A stretch of DNA of 64,000 nucleotides from Leuconostoc lactis (lineage in GTDB: Bacteria > Bacillota > Bacilli > Lactobacillales > Lactobacillaceae): assembly GCF_007954625.1 (NCBI RefSeq), contig NZ_CP042420.1, positions 535,001 to 599,000 of the forward strand, read 5' to 3'. The notes beneath the pieces are model-generated. The model made no database searches, had not been told where the DNA came from, and saw nothing but the letters and a program-made list of their open reading frames with translations. Made by a program: the position numbers and the translations under genes. Shown piece after piece: positions 28,722 to 42,582 of this stretch; positions within the stretch are counted from its first letter, which is position 1, and each line of letters begins with the position of its first letter.

Positions 28722-28755
28722 AAAAAGACAACCAAGCAATGGTTGTCTTTTTTTA
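28722..28755. terminator. terminator of the first two-HTH regulator
   Basis: AAAAAAGACAACCA (28722-28735), loop AGCAA, TGGTTGTCTTTTTT (28741-28754), overlapping the stop of the gene at 28753. Confidence 0.88.
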
Positions 28756-29499
28756 ACCTAGGGTATGCCATATGGCGAGTGGTTGGCTTGTCAAAACACG
28801 TAACCGTTTTTGATAATCAGTTAAGGGTTCCGGCTTTTTTTGGCTCATCCAAACCGAGATAAGGCCAGTTAAGGTTTCGATGTAGTATTCCGTACCCAGG
28901 ACATCTTGCGCCGCCCGTGGTTGATATTTAATCAAAAGGGACTTATATTTGGCTTTCAAAAATTGTACCCACACCCCACGAATATAGGGTCGCGTATATA
29001 AGATATGGAGAACTTTGTGTTCTTGATAAAGTAAGGGCGTCATATCATTGATAAAAACCGTTAAAATATCAGGTTCAACGGCTAAGCGCGACTCGATTTT
29101 GGTTTTAATGTTATCATCGACAGCATTAATAGTGGCATAAGCTAAATCATCGAACGTTGGGAAATAAGCCATGACACGTTCAATGGATAGGCCAGCCAAT
29201 TTGGCAATGGTTGCCATTGTCGGGATTTTATCAGCACTCGCGCGCATACTTTTAATGAAAGCGGCTAAAATGAGTTGTTCGTCATCGAGATCTTGACTGT
29301 TTTGGTCGCTGGGCATAAAAAAATTCAGTGGTAAATGAAACGTTTCAATGATTGTGAGCATCATTTCAGCGGTAGGGTGGCTTTTAGCCCGTTCCCAATT
29401 GGAAACGGATTGATAGGAAATAAACAGTTTGTCAGCAAATGTTTGTTGGGTCAAGCCAAGTGATTTTCGTAGCGCTTTAATTTGGTTACCAATCGCCAT
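28753..29499 (-). CDS. regulator with XRE and TetR-like DNA-binding domains
   Basis: A 248-residue protein. Residues about 5-60 are an XRE helix-turn-helix (IKALRKSLGLTQQTFADKLFISYQSVSNWE). Residues about 75-125 look like a TetR helix-turn-helix (PTMATIAKLAGLSIERVMAYFPTFDDLAYATI) and the rest like a TetR-type helical domain. It is thus two DNA-binding modules in one chain. The gene at 32861-33589 is a paralogue with the same arrangement. No clear target; it sits between the PadR module and pdxR and has its own terminator. Confidence 0.8.
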   Translation of the reverse strand: MAIGNQIKALRKSLGLTQQTFADKLFISYQSVSNWERAKSHPTAEMMLTIIETFHLPLNFFMPSDQNSQDLDDEQLILAAFIKSMRASADKIPTMATIAKLAGLSIERVMAYFPTFDDLAYATINAVDDNIKTKIESRLAVEPDILTVFINDMTPLLYQEHKVLHILYTRPYIRGVWVQFLKAKYKSLLIKYQPRAAQDVLGTEYYIETLTGLISVWMSQKKPEPLTDYQKRLRVLTSQPLAIWHTLG

Positions 29500-32686: not shown

Positions 32687-32863
32687 TAGAATACTAGGTG
32701 AGGCTGTTACATATTGAAACAGAGTTCTCAAACTAGGGGTACCTATGCTAAACATTTACCTTAAGACAGACTTTGGGTCAGGGTAGTGATGAGTGGTGTA
32801 GGTTTTTTATTGTCTAAAATTAAAAAACCCCAGGCACCGCTACACGCGGTGCCTGGGGTTTTA
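32687..32863 (+). ncRNA. orphan structured leader-like transcript with a 13-codon ORF
   Basis: TGATAGAAT (32684-32692) resembles an extended -10. AGGTGAGGCT follows (32696-32705), the opening of M-box magnesium riboswitches. A short stem CTGTT/AACAG (from 32704), and a hairpin around 32754-32787, are seen. A 13-codon ORF (32745-32786, MLNIYLKTDFGSG) has AGGGG 5 bases before its ATG. A 17-bp terminator stem follows and no rightward gene lies directly beyond. The TSS predicted from this -10 would cut into AGGTGAGGCT, so identity as M-box is doubtful. Confidence 0.35.
32824..32862. terminator. strong bidirectional terminator
   Basis: AAAACCCCAGGCACCGC (32824-32840), loop TACAC, perfect complement (32846-32862). 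The right arm overlaps the stop of the leftward regulator gene; on the left it would end the leader transcript. Confidence 0.92.
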
Positions 32864-33589
32864 CTGTGGCCAAGATTGTATAGGGATGCGGGTAAGATGC
32901 TGAATACGCCGTTGAAAAGCTGCCAATGGTTCGGGGTGTATGGCACTCAACCACACAGAAATGAACGTAATGAGCACGTCAAGCAAGTAGGTAGCGTCGA
33001 TGGCTTTTGGTTGCCATTGTTGGATGAGCTGTTTGTAGCGTCCTTTAATAAAACGTAACCAAGTGTCTTTCAAGTAGGGGCGGGTGTATAACAGGTGCAA
33101 TTTCTCACGTTCGGCATACAAGCGTGGCGCCATATAGGTTGAAAAAATTGTGATCAAATCTTCGTGTGCGATAAGATGCATTTCAACGGTGGGTTTAATT
33201 TGGTCGTCAACGGTGACCATAAACTGATTAACGAGTGCCTCATAATTTGGAAAGTGTTGGCAAATTTGCGCGATTGAGAGATTCGCAAACTGGGCAATTG
33301 TGGCATAACTTGGCGGTTTACTGGCACAATACATGAGACTCTCCAAAAAACCACGTAAGATTTGTTCTTTTTCTTGCGTGCATTGTTGTTGTTTTGATTG
33401 TGTGATGAAAAAGTCATGTGGTAAGTGATATTTTTCAAGGATGGCAAGCAACATATCAGCGGTGGGCTGACTTTGATGGCGCTCCCAATTGGAGACAGCT
33501 TGATAGGAAATATAAAGCGTATCTGCCAAATCGCGTTGGGTGAGCCCTTTTGACTGTCTTAGCAATTTAATCTGGTGACCAATTGTCAT
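32861..33589 (-). CDS. second regulator with XRE and TetR-like DNA-binding domains
   Basis: A 242-residue paralogue of the protein at 28753-29499. XRE domain about 5-60 (IKLLRQSKGLTQRDLADTLYISYQAVSNWE), TetR-like segment about 75-125 (PSYATIAQFANLSIAQICQHFPNYEALVNQF), then helices including LHLLYTRPYLKDTW, which matches LHILYTRPYIRGVW in the first copy. ATG 33589 is chosen because GGAGAAAATT precedes it; a further 43 upstream codons are in frame without a ribosome site. It is divergent from the double-glycine XRE gene at 33689 and may control it. Confidence 0.8.
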   Translation of the reverse strand: MTIGHQIKLLRQSKGLTQRDLADTLYISYQAVSNWERHQSQPTADMLLAILEKYHLPHDFFITQSKQQQCTQEKEQILRGFLESLMYCASKPPSYATIAQFANLSIAQICQHFPNYEALVNQFMVTVDDQIKPTVEMHLIAHEDLITIFSTYMAPRLYAEREKLHLLYTRPYLKDTWLRFIKGRYKQLIQQWQPKAIDATYLLDVLITFISVWLSAIHPEPLAAFQRRIQHLTRIPIQSWPQ

Positions 33590-33632
33590 AATTTTCTCCA
33601 AGCGTTTTGATGCGATCTTCGTACAATGATAG

Positions 33633-33651
33633 TATTGGCAGAAACCCAATA
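33633..33651. promoter_or_regulatory. inverted repeat between the divergent regulator genes
   Basis: TATTGG (33633-33638), 7-base spacer, CCAATA (33646-33651), in the 99-base gap between the two-HTH regulator and the XRE gene. Also flanked by GTAC on each side (33621 and 33652). Likely operator for one or both. Confidence 0.5.
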
Positions 33652-33688
33652 GTACATGTCGTGGTAGGCAGACGAAAATAAGGAGAAA

Positions 33689-33946
33689 ATGATGTTGAAT
33701 CAGACACGTTATCAGCAAATGACCATTGCACAGTTAAAGCAAGTTACTGGCGGCCATCAATTACCTCAAAATTTAACAGCACTTAGAACAGGGGCTCGAC
33801 TTAGCCGTCGGGATTTGGCGGAAAAGTTAAATGTTTGTACCTCAACCATTGCGCGCTATGAAGAAGGTAAGCGAGTACCAGATGTTGATTTAATTATTCA
33901 AATGGCGGAGCTATTTAACACGACTTGTGACCGCATGTTGAAATAA
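33689..33946 (+). CDS. small XRE regulator with a double-glycine leader
   Basis: An 85-residue protein. From about residue 28 to the end it is a complete single-domain XRE repressor (NLTALRTGARLSRRDLAEKLNVCTSTIARYEEGKRVPD). The first 22 residues are an addition whose segment 11-22, MTIAQLKQVTGG, fits the double-glycine leader consensus LSxxELxxIxGG at -12, -11, -7, -4, -2 and -1. AAGGAG lies 4 bases before the ATG, so the leader is translated. A C39 peptidase gene, whose family cuts after Gly-Gly in such leaders, follows 81 bases later. Processing is inferred, not shown. Confidence 0.8.
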   Translation: MMLNQTRYQQMTIAQLKQVTGGHQLPQNLTALRTGARLSRRDLAEKLNVCTSTIARYEEGKRVPDVDLIIQMAELFNTTCDRMLK

Positions 33947-34027
33947 CGACCATGACTAATCTAAAACCTATTATAAACGGATAAAGTGATAAGCAGCATG
34001 CCGATATGGTATTTGCTGAAACATAAG

Positions 34028-34465
34028 ATGACACAACAAAACTTCCAATATATCGCACAAGAAGATGAAATGGCATGTGGGCTGGCAGCCCTAGCCATGG
34101 TTATGGCTCATTATGGGACATCGCCAGCGCTGTCACGGCTACGCCAATTGACGCAGACTAATGCGTTAGGCACAACAGCCTATGGGTTAATGTCAGCAGC
34201 ACAAATGCTTCATTTTGACACGTTGGCTCTGCAAGCAGATCAGACGTTATTAACCCAACCTGATTTACTGTTGCCATTTATTGCCCATGTCCGACAACCT
34301 ACTGGCGACTATCATTATGTCGTGGTTTACAGGCGAGCTGGGCAGGACTTATGCATTGCAGATCCAGATCCTGCAGTTGGGAAAATTAAGCTGTCGTTGC
34401 CAGCATTTAGTCGTATGTGGACTGGGGTTGCTTTGTTCATCACACCACCGTCGGCAAGCATCTAA
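34028..34465 (+). CDS. stand-alone C39 (double-glycine) peptidase
   Basis: A 145-residue protein equal to the peptidase domain of ComA/LagD-type ABC exporters, without membrane or ATPase domains. YIAQEDEMACGLAALAMVMAHYG gives Gln11 and catalytic Cys17; GDYHYVVVYR gives His96; IADPDPAVGKIKLS gives Asp112, followed by FSRMWTGVALF. All catalytic residues are present. In-frame starts exist at 33986 (GTG) and 33998 (ATG); none has a good ribosome site, and 34028 gives the most family-like N-terminus. The only double-glycine leader nearby is in the XRE gene upstream. Confidence 0.85.
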   Translation: MTQQNFQYIAQEDEMACGLAALAMVMAHYGTSPALSRLRQLTQTNALGTTAYGLMSAAQMLHFDTLALQADQTLLTQPDLLLPFIAHVRQPTGDYHYVVVYRRAGQDLCIADPDPAVGKIKLSLPAFSRMWTGVALFITPPSASI

Positions 34466-40549: not shown

Positions 40550-41860
40550 ATGCTAACAATTTTGTCATATATTAATTTGCTGATGCAGCCGTTGACATCG
40601 ACCATTGCGGCAGTTGTTTGGTTTGGTCTATTATTGGGGCAACCTCAGATAGCACGTCGGACGATATGGCAACTTTTAGGCTGGTTATTCATCGTGACAG
40701 CGATAAGTCGTTGGTTGGTGCCAACAGCTTATCAGATAAGTGTGACGTCAACGCTACTCATTGTGAGTTTAGTTTATGTTGGTCGACGAACACAGCGGGC
40801 GACACCGCTTGGTGTGTTGTTACTTGACGCCATTGTGAGCTCGTTACTGGCTGCTTGGGTGTACAATGTCGCATTGGCCATATTATCATTCTTGGCGGTT
40901 CCCTTAGCCATTCAGTTACTGGGCTATTTAATTGCTGGGGTTGTGACGATTGTGGTCGCGATTTTACCGTATTTGTATCGTTTTAAATGGTTAACCACTA
41001 GCTTTTTTCAACGTCATCCCCGGCAACTCGGCGTTTTTTTAATGATTGGGCTTGGCATGCGTGGTTTAAACGATTATTTAGCTTATTTGTGGCATGATAC
41101 AGCCTACCAAGGATCAGTGATGTGGGAAATATTATCGCTGGTTGGGGTGCTGATGCTTATCTTGCTGCCCACATTGCGACATCAATATGACCTATTAACG
41201 TGCAAATTACAGCAACGTGATCGCATGTTAGTTGCCACACAGCAGTATACGAATCAGCTGGAAAAGCAATATTTGGCGTATCGCACATTTCGACATGATT
41301 ATAAAAATATCTTAGCGAGTTTGGCTTATGGTATCCAAAATGGCAATATGGCAGACGTGCAATACGCTTATGAATCCGTGATTGAAACGAGCCAGCAGGC
41401 CTTACCGGAGACGCCAATACTAGCGCTGCATTTAATTGCTGACGTTAATTTACGCAGTATGCTATTAGTTAAATATCAACAGGCATTACGGCAAAGTGTA
41501 CAGTTTGCAGTTGATATTCAGCAAGTTTTTCAACCGGTCGCCCTTAAAATGGATGTTGATTTTTATCGTGTTTTTGGTATTTTACTCGACAATGCGATTG
41601 AAGCAGCCATTGAAACACCAGAAAAGTTGGTGACGATTGTTTTTGTTGGTTCAGAACAAGTGGCGATCATCAATAGCTGTTTACACCGATTAGACACGGC
41701 CACGTCTAAACAGGTTGGCTATTCATCAAAGCATGGCCATGCGGGAGTTGGTTTGTATTTTGTACATCAATTTTTGATGCAACGGCAAGATATTGAACTG
41801 GTGACGGTGACCGAAAGCCGTCGTGTCAGGCAAGAGTTAACGTTTGGGGGCGCAATTTGA
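40550..41860 (+). CDS. AgrC-like sensor histidine kinase (HPK10, GHKL type)
   Basis: A 436-residue kinase. About six membrane helices fill residues 1-210. The phospho-acceptor His is in FRHDYKNILAS, the N box is GILLDNAIEAA and the G box is GHAGVGLYFVHQ. Such kinases usually sense secreted peptides (AgrD, CSF, bacteriocin inducers). The ATG has GGAGGAG upstream. Followed with overlap by its LytTR regulator. No peptide precursor, AgrB-like protease or exporter is adjacent. Confidence 0.88.
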   Translation: MLTILSYINLLMQPLTSTIAAVVWFGLLLGQPQIARRTIWQLLGWLFIVTAISRWLVPTAYQISVTSTLLIVSLVYVGRRTQRATPLGVLLLDAIVSSLLAAWVYNVALAILSFLAVPLAIQLLGYLIAGVVTIVVAILPYLYRFKWLTTSFFQRHPRQLGVFLMIGLGMRGLNDYLAYLWHDTAYQGSVMWEILSLVGVLMLILLPTLRHQYDLLTCKLQQRDRMLVATQQYTNQLEKQYLAYRTFRHDYKNILASLAYGIQNGNMADVQYAYESVIETSQQALPETPILALHLIADVNLRSMLLVKYQQALRQSVQFAVDIQQVFQPVALKMDVDFYRVFGILLDNAIEAAIETPEKLVTIVFVGSEQVAIINSCLHRLDTATSKQVGYSSKHGHAGVGLYFVHQFLMQRQDIELVTVTESRRVRQELTFGGAI

Positions 41861-42582
41861 CCCATTATTATGTCTTAGAAGACCAACCACCACAACAAAA
41901 GCGGTTACAGCAAATTATTGGGACGTGTCAGTTATTTGATCAACCAGCACCGTTATTAGCCGCGTTACAAGCAGACCGACAGCCAAAAGTCATTTTGATT
42001 GATTTAGCGCTGCATCATGTCGTACATGCTGGACTCAATGTCGCCCAGGCCATTCGTAGCTTTGATAGTTTATCGCCGATTATTATTGTTAGTACGCATA
42101 CTGAATTACTAGCTATGAGTTATCAATATCAAATCGGGGCGCTAGATTTTGTCGATAAGTCATTGTGTGAAGCGAAATTTAAGCAACGCATTCGCTCAGC
42201 TATCCGTGTTGCCAATCACCATTTGGCGCTACAAACGCAACAAACACCCGAAATTGTGACTTTGCCAAGTAGCCATCAGCGGGAAATTATTGATGTGAAT
42301 GACATGATTTATATTGCCAGTAATGTGATGGCCAGTCATCGGGCGACGATTTATTGTGAGCAACGTCAAATTGACTTACGCGCGACCATGAAAACGTTGG
42401 CTGATTTGAGTGACAAGTTAATTCAAATCCATGCGGCTTATGTGATTAATCGTGATAAAATTTGTTATTTAGATCGGCATAATCATACCGTGATATTAGA
42501 TACTTGTGTGGCATTACCTTATTCAAAGCGGCATTTTAAACAGCTACAAACGTTGTTAAAGTCGTCTATTGACAAAATGTAA
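41857..42582 (+). CDS. AgrA/ComE-like response regulator with LytTR domain
   Basis: A 241-residue regulator: receiver domain with Asp49 in VILIDLAL, Thr/Ser in IIIVSTHTEL and Lys in FVDKSL; LytTR DNA-binding domain from about residue 140 (EIIDVNDMIYIASNV ... IQIHAAYVINRDKICYLDRHNHTVIL). It starts with TTG at 41857, overlapping the kinase stop, with GGGGG 6 bases before it. A peptide-signalling two-component system is likely; the regulon is unknown. Confidence 0.87.
   Translation: MTHYYVLEDQPPQQKRLQQIIGTCQLFDQPAPLLAALQADRQPKVILIDLALHHVVHAGLNVAQAIRSFDSLSPIIIVSTHTELLAMSYQYQIGALDFVDKSLCEAKFKQRIRSAIRVANHHLALQTQQTPEIVTLPSSHQREIIDVNDMIYIASNVMASHRATIYCEQRQIDLRATMKTLADLSDKLIQIHAAYVINRDKICYLDRHNHTVILDTCVALPYSKRHFKQLQTLLKSSIDKM

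Follow-up and report, generated by a model that had tools for sequence, protein, structure and literature searches.

The window analyzed here, a 64-kb stretch of the Leuconostoc lactis genome, harbors a small XRE transcription regulator that begins with a double-glycine leader and, downstream on the same strand, a C39 leader peptidase encoded as a gene of its own. Judged from sequence, the regulator is very probably a C39 substrate. This reading is based on several points: the leader has the recognition signature; three species keep both the leader and the gene pair; the two genes are under selection; the genome has a sole leader over the model cut-off and a sole C39 domain; and homologues are linked to C39 exporters and to double-glycine peptides. 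We think it fairly probable that the neighboring peptidase cuts the leader after Gly-Gly as a maturation or switch step. The features of the locus are as follows, the window genome being termed G000, L. lactis KCTC 3528 G008, and L. holzapfelii G002.

32861..33589, minus strand: divergent 242-residue XRE regulator, a type of divergent neighbor that leader-XRE genes have in several other Leuconostoc as well
33590..33688, no strand: intergenic region that separates the divergent regulator genes and is conserved in both G008 and G002
33630..33654, no strand: imperfect inverted repeat TAGTATTGG-7-CCAATAGTA, a candidate operator, found in G000 and G008 and not kept in G002
33680..33685, plus strand: Shine-Dalgarno sequence AAGGAG
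33689..33946, plus strand: whole XRE open reading frame, 85 residues from the first ATG, with the start at 33692 preferred
33692..33754, plus strand: double-glycine leader of the XRE protein (Y-15, M-12, L-7, V-4, G-2, G-1), with the predicted cut after base 33754
33755..33943, plus strand: XRE/HTH_3 core of 63 residues that would remain after the predicted cut
34028..34465, plus strand: stand-alone C39 peptidase of 145 residues, with in-frame alternative starts at 33998 (ATG) and 33986 (GTG)

The second ATG of the regulator gene, at 33692, gives a protein of 84 residues, is better spaced from the AAGGAG, and yields an N-terminus that agrees with those of relatives; we therefore use the 84-residue numbering, in which the leader spans residues 1–21 and the core residues 22–84. 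The leader is translated, as had been proposed: AAGGAG precedes it, and no ATG, GTG, or TTG lies between the internal ATG of the leader (33719) and the HTH domain, which rules out an internal start bypassing the leader. The full leader reads YQQMTIAQLKQVTGG, with Gly-Gly at residues 20–21 (21–22 in the 85-residue form). The stretch first described as a double-glycine leader, MTIAQLKQVTGG, is present, with the correction that residue −8 is Gln, not Glu. In PMC10885120, a ComA recognition motif is given as Phe(−15), Ile(−12), Leu(−7), and Ile(−4) followed by the double glycine, and LahT150 is described as failing to remove leaders without hydrophobic residues at −4, −7, and −12. The window leader, with Tyr, Met, Leu, and Val at −15, −12, −7, and −4, bears a ComA-type recognition signature; it is hydrophobic at −12, −7, and −4 (and at −15, as for ComA) and ends in GG, the sequence pattern of a double-glycine substrate.

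These positions were tabulated for 30 leader-XRE proteins gathered by homology; entries that are truncated or have a short start (P0004, P0005, and P0020) had been excluded, along with near-duplicates. Positions −12, −7, and −4 are hydrophobic in all 30, and position −15 in 27 (Phe or Tyr in 24). Gly is found at −1 in every protein and at −2 in 27, the other three leaders ending in AG or CG. The original prediction proposed comparing conservation of the leader with that of the HTH domain; across homologues the Gly-Gly column is among the best-conserved, with a constancy equal to that of the HTH core. In the short database entries P0004 and P0020 the leader is partly or wholly missing, apparently through the choice of start codon; in L. 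fallax the frame of P0020 extends upstream to include the leader.

In a plain scan with the NCBIfam leader model TIGR01847 (cut-off 15.7 bits), the window XRE protein scored 14.1 bits. The model was among the families listed for five of nine leader-XRE proteins (window, P0002, P0012, P0019, and P0024), only P0019 (17.5) exceeding the cut-off, and was among those listed for none of ten control HTH proteins; each list covered up to 25 families, a number that one control reached. In a six-frame scan the leader exceeded the cut-off together with neighbors in G000 (15.9) and G008 (16.5), and alone in G002 (16.8). The window genome contains two TIGR01847 matches, of which the XRE leader is the better, the other being weak and within a 700-residue frame; one match lies over the cut-off in this genome and one in G008. 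Within the window, among open reading frames of at least 30 residues with script-called starts, the XRE gene is the only one to show a strict leader pattern in its first 40 residues, and no further double-glycine frame was found in the 64 kb. A profile search of genome contigs found no leader in 28 XRE proteins from other lineages (0/28).

What follows the leader is a complete single-domain XRE regulator, as originally described. The HTH_3 match (E=1.1e-10, 41.9 bits against a Pfam cut-off of 23) covers residues 31–80 of the 85-residue form, and the helices of the AF2 model, together with PDB matches, indicate a five-helix fold. The core is thus a whole HTH_3 domain rather than a short antimicrobial peptide of the class II bacteriocin kind. 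Foldseek matches in the PDB (3op9, ImmR, DdrO, SinR, and CylR2) belong to small repressors or to domains of these. In the AF2 model (22 sequences, mean pLDDT 80.9), a low-confidence leader helix at residues 12–19 precedes a complete HTH from residue 21, so a cut after Gly21 is predicted to spare the whole domain, in agreement with the original proposal.

The C39 gene lies 81 bp downstream of the XRE gene and is followed, on the opposite strand, by an EmrE-type transporter gene. The stretch between the two genes (33944–34040) is likewise well conserved, and the place of the upstream in-frame C39 start found in G000 (MPIWYL...) is taken in G002 by a mini-ORF of its own, with a TGA that overlaps the start of the C39 gene. 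The product matches PF03412 over residues 6–141 of 145 (E=5.7e-35, 120.5 bits, cut-off 22), and its best PDB matches are the ComA peptidase domains 3k8u (E=2e-31) and 5xe8 (E=9e-31). Both earlier statements about this protein, namely that Gln11, Cys17, His96, and Asp112 are intact and that ABC domains are lacking, were verified: the four residues are all present, and the frame (145–155 residues, depending on the start) stops at 34465 with no transmembrane or ATPase domain, unlike a peptidase-containing transporter (PCAT). The solo C39 proteins of G000, G008, and G002 group with P0041 and P0046, two database proteins classed as solo from their sequence, in one clade with support 1.00, separate from exporter C39 domains.

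A leader of this kind might be bound and never cut. The uncut leader would then hold the regulator at an exporter, or inhibit the peptidase, until bacteriocin precursors displaced the XRE protein. The recognition positions are the same as in true substrates, and leaders ending in AG or CG may be poorly cut. However, a mere binding tag would need no Gly-Gly, and this cutting signal is kept in 27 of the 30 leaders; moreover, the solo C39 of G000 has its catalytic residues, and these were also seen by eye in G008, G002, P0041, and P0046. We consider such a tether or decoy role improbable.

Gene order in G008 and G002 is as in the window: the divergent 242-residue regulator, the leader-XRE gene, the C39-only gene, and the EmrE-type gene. 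Both genomes keep the pair and the Gly-Gly, contrary to the absence of conservation that would have spoken against the original prediction. Three pairwise comparisons among G000, G008, and G002 gave dN/dS values of 0.10, 0.055, and 0.085 for the XRE gene and 0.23, 0.21, and 0.18 for the C39 gene, with a dS to G002 of 1.2–1.8. Both genes are thus under purifying selection, and the dN/dS values rule out a pseudogene reading. G002 additionally contains a weak C39 fragment and, on another contig (L164 1526-1672), a lantibiotic-like 48-residue double-glycine peptide near ABC transporter genes.

In both L. lactis genomes, G000 and G008, the solo peptidase is the only PF03412 match. The bacteriocin accessory gene model TIGR01000 found nothing in either, and searches with PF03412, TIGR01847, and TIGR01000 found no full C39-exporter or bacteriocin elsewhere in these genomes. 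With one C39 protein and one leader over the cut-off, each genome offers a single evident candidate substrate for the peptidase, its neighbor. The pair could instead be the decaying remainder of a lost bacteriocin locus, the leader having no present role; exporter body, accessory gene, and bacteriocins are all missing from the finds in G000 and G008, and broken C39 copies exist in the family. Against this, each gene combines a high dS with a dN/dS well below 1, and five distinct solo C39 sequences form one clade; we regard decay as very unlikely. By the gene content found, the L. lactis group has rather lost the exporter and retained its peptidase domain as a separate gene. Retention of the peptidase domain where no exporter or accessory gene was found suggests that in this group the regulator would need cutting, not export.

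Leader-XRE genes are widespread in the genus. Among 19 Leuconostoc genomes, 13 contain leader-XREs (17 genes), 13 contain PF03412, and 11 contain both. Eight other Leuconostoc genomes encode the C39 as the N-terminal domain of a full exporter (frames of 717–726 residues), with 46–50% identity to the solo C39. Linkage was counted over 68 XRE matches, after removal of 10 of 65 leader matches, weak ones that lay within long frames or scored at the floor. Another leader match lies within 5 kb of 11 of the 17 leader-XREs and of none of the 51 other XREs (Fisher p 8e-9), and a C39 lies within 20 kb of 11/17 compared with 1/51 (p 9e-8). Two control XREs had matches extending towards the leader region, and re-reading showed no leader in either. 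An XRE family in which this N-terminus is common without any C39 neighbor had been named as evidence against the original prediction. This is borne out in part: for six of the 17 Leuconostoc genes the assembly shows no C39 up to 20 kb away, but the genomes of four of these six contain a whole or truncated C39 at another place.

The leader could in principle be an ordinary N-terminal extension that resembles a leader by chance, a reading to which the plain-scan TIGR01847 score, slightly below the cut-off, lends some color. It is contradicted by the conservation of the leader, the residues at its recognition positions, the linkage statistics, and the recurrence in several genera described below, and is hardly credible. 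Conservation together with linkage to leader peptides and C39 rules out a chance leader.

Outside the L. lactis group, leader-XREs are found within bacteriocin exporter operons. In L. gelidum (L071), the exporter, accessory, and leader-XRE genes are followed by two double-glycine peptides, and in this locus and in L120 the start of the leader-XRE gene overlaps the stop of the accessory gene. The L. mesenteroides plasmid NZ_CP088903 contains an accessory gene and an overlapping XRE gene with a leader ending in AG; its exporter is interrupted. On the Latilactobacillus curvatus plasmid AP018701, a leader-XRE annotated as "hypothetical protein" (L119 7971-8234) lies among bacteriocin, C39 exporter, accessory, and two-component genes, a cluster that we take from its peptide sequence to be of the sakacin A/curvacin A type. 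Genera g4 and g32 contain exporter, accessory, and leader-XRE genes in five loci (L185–L189; the accessory frame of L186 is interrupted), and in all of these except L188 the next open reading frame is a double-glycine peptide, pediocin-like in L189. In g33 (L166), the leader-XRE is upstream of the exporter. A 78-residue frame in L076 (10225-10461) joins the first part of an exporter C39 domain to the end of a leader-XRE; it can be read as a footprint of the exporter-to-leader-XRE gene order and the trace of an internal deletion.

In such operons the leader might instead serve to route the repressor out of the cell, in a FlgM-like manner, so that repression would end only with a working exporter; the window pair would then be a derived form that only cuts. 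Consistent with removal by export are the position of leader-XRE genes within exporter operons, with overlapping starts in L071 and L120, and the length of the proteins, 82–104 residues, which is within the size range of exporter substrates. However, a folded HTH would need unfolding, and G000 and G008 lack a detectable accessory gene or full C39-exporter, yet their leader and peptidase are under selection. Export remains the best rival explanation for the exporter-bearing relatives, and we hold it to be unlikely.

The module is not a universal part of exporter operons, a possibility ruled out by the finding that a small XRE directly follows only seven of 56 Lactobacillaceae accessory genes, six of the seven having a leader. 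The 56 genes were hand-picked, fragmentary and many weaker matches being left out, and three of them have less than 620 bases downstream. Across 395 genomes of the order, with E up to 1e-17, matches outside Leuconostoc were found in g4 and g32 only; these begin at model position 10 or later, with no leader as far as read. A broader alignment query recovered leader-bearing members in g4, g32, and g33. A plasmid search for relatives of the G297 leader-XRE gave one record, matched over the HTH part only, and in the other C39 exporter plasmids inspected no annotated small HTH gene comes immediately behind the accessory gene. On a tree of the HTH core (69 columns, long branches), the leader requires eight label changes, but a single origin is not rejected (p-AU 0.195), and repeated capture of the leader by unrelated XREs is compatible with the tree as well. 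Given the 7/56 count, the module is optional; its distribution is patchy and, within the range of the searches, restricted to the Lactobacillaceae. The earlier framing around a C39-only pair now looks too narrow, since the pair resembles a cut-down version of a larger family of bacteriocin operons that have the peptidase inside the exporter.

Several members bear on the proposed dependence on C39. The C39 is frameshifted before the catalytic His region in P0048 and in P0045, the representative of a cluster of 15 contigs, and has an internal deletion in P0042, indicating that an intact C39 is missing from some strains. G012 and G018 lack a C39, and their leader-XRE has a tail that looks frameshifted relative to P0026; an altered regulator in genomes without C39 fits dependence on the peptidase. 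G006, in which two intact leader-XREs were found and yet only a 97-residue C39 fragment, does not fit. In addition, not every XRE in these contexts has a leader: in G144 a small one without a leader follows the accessory gene, with a second, leader-bearing XRE in the same locus; in G632 a small leaderless one adjoins double-glycine peptides; and in G689 a 189-residue XRE without a leader follows the accessory gene.

Under the cutting model, the C39 peptidase would act between bases 33754 and 33755, freeing the pre-regulator of its leader tag and leaving an HTH regulator of 63 residues. The cut may alter the activity, stability, or location of the regulator, whose targets would be the divergent promoter region (33590–33688) and its own operon. 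In exporter-bearing relatives, the enzyme would be the C39 domain of the exporter itself, so that processing of the regulator could report the presence and free capacity of the peptidase or exporter and feed back on transcription. The region 33590–33688 is likely an operator/promoter region; a conserved palindromic operator common to all members was not found. Elsewhere in the window, 28753–29499 (minus strand) encodes a second regulator like that of 32861–33589, with an XRE head and weak BetI/HapR-like matches in its C-terminal part, and 40550–42582 (plus strand) encodes a GHKL sensor kinase and a LytTR response regulator of the kind known from bacteriocin quorum sensing. On contig C4 of G000, XRE matches recur at spacings of 12,022 and 51,113 bases, pointing to long duplications or a concatenated plasmid in that contig.

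We tentatively propose that leader-tagged XRE repressors could be a new substrate class of bacteriocin-type C39 peptidases, in which cutting (and perhaps export) of the repressor by the exporter signals a working exporter and releases bacteriocin transcription, and that the L. lactis group has been reduced to an exporter-free, two-gene peptidase-regulator switch. If so, bacteriocin leader peptidases would process transcription regulators in addition to secreted peptides, and gene expression would be coupled directly to the state of the exporter. This would explain the small XRE genes in bacteriocin operons of lactic acid bacteria, including the "hypothetical" one in the sakacin A-like cluster, give the stand-alone C39 peptidase a function, and describe a compact protease-controlled regulator.

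A literature search by title and abstract opening, with subscription journals thinly covered and therefore weak as evidence of absence, returned no transcription regulator with a double-glycine leader and no cutting of one by a C39 peptidase. Partial precedents exist. The activity of the FlgM anti-sigma factor is set by its own export, and that of the Bacillus sporulation pro-sigma factors by removal of an N-terminal pro-sequence; these differ from the XRE regulator in having other folds, other proteases or exporters, and no double-glycine leader. The window C39 belongs to the same family as the C39 domains of the PCATs ComA and LahT and has the same catalytic residues, and the excised LahT150 domain is described in PMC10885120 as a functional soluble enzyme. 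Unlike those domains, the window C39 is a natural separate gene without an exporter, and the substrate proposed for it is a transcription regulator rather than a secreted peptide. HetC of Nostoc is a C39 exporter needed for cell differentiation, for which PMC10986499 gives no substrate and reports no leader-bearing gene near hetC. It resembles the window system in that a C39 exporter is tied to gene regulation and differentiation. The AP018701 cluster has a leader-XRE as in the window, but with a full exporter and bacteriocins present. Among repressors, a comparison can be made with CylR2, the cytolysin repressor of Enterococcus faecalis, which controls a peptide toxin operon with a C39 exporter. 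Like the window protein, CylR2 is a small single-domain XRE regulator (Foldseek matches 1utx and 2xiu); unlike the window protein of 84–85 residues, it has about 66 residues and no leader, and is close in length to the predicted 63-residue product.
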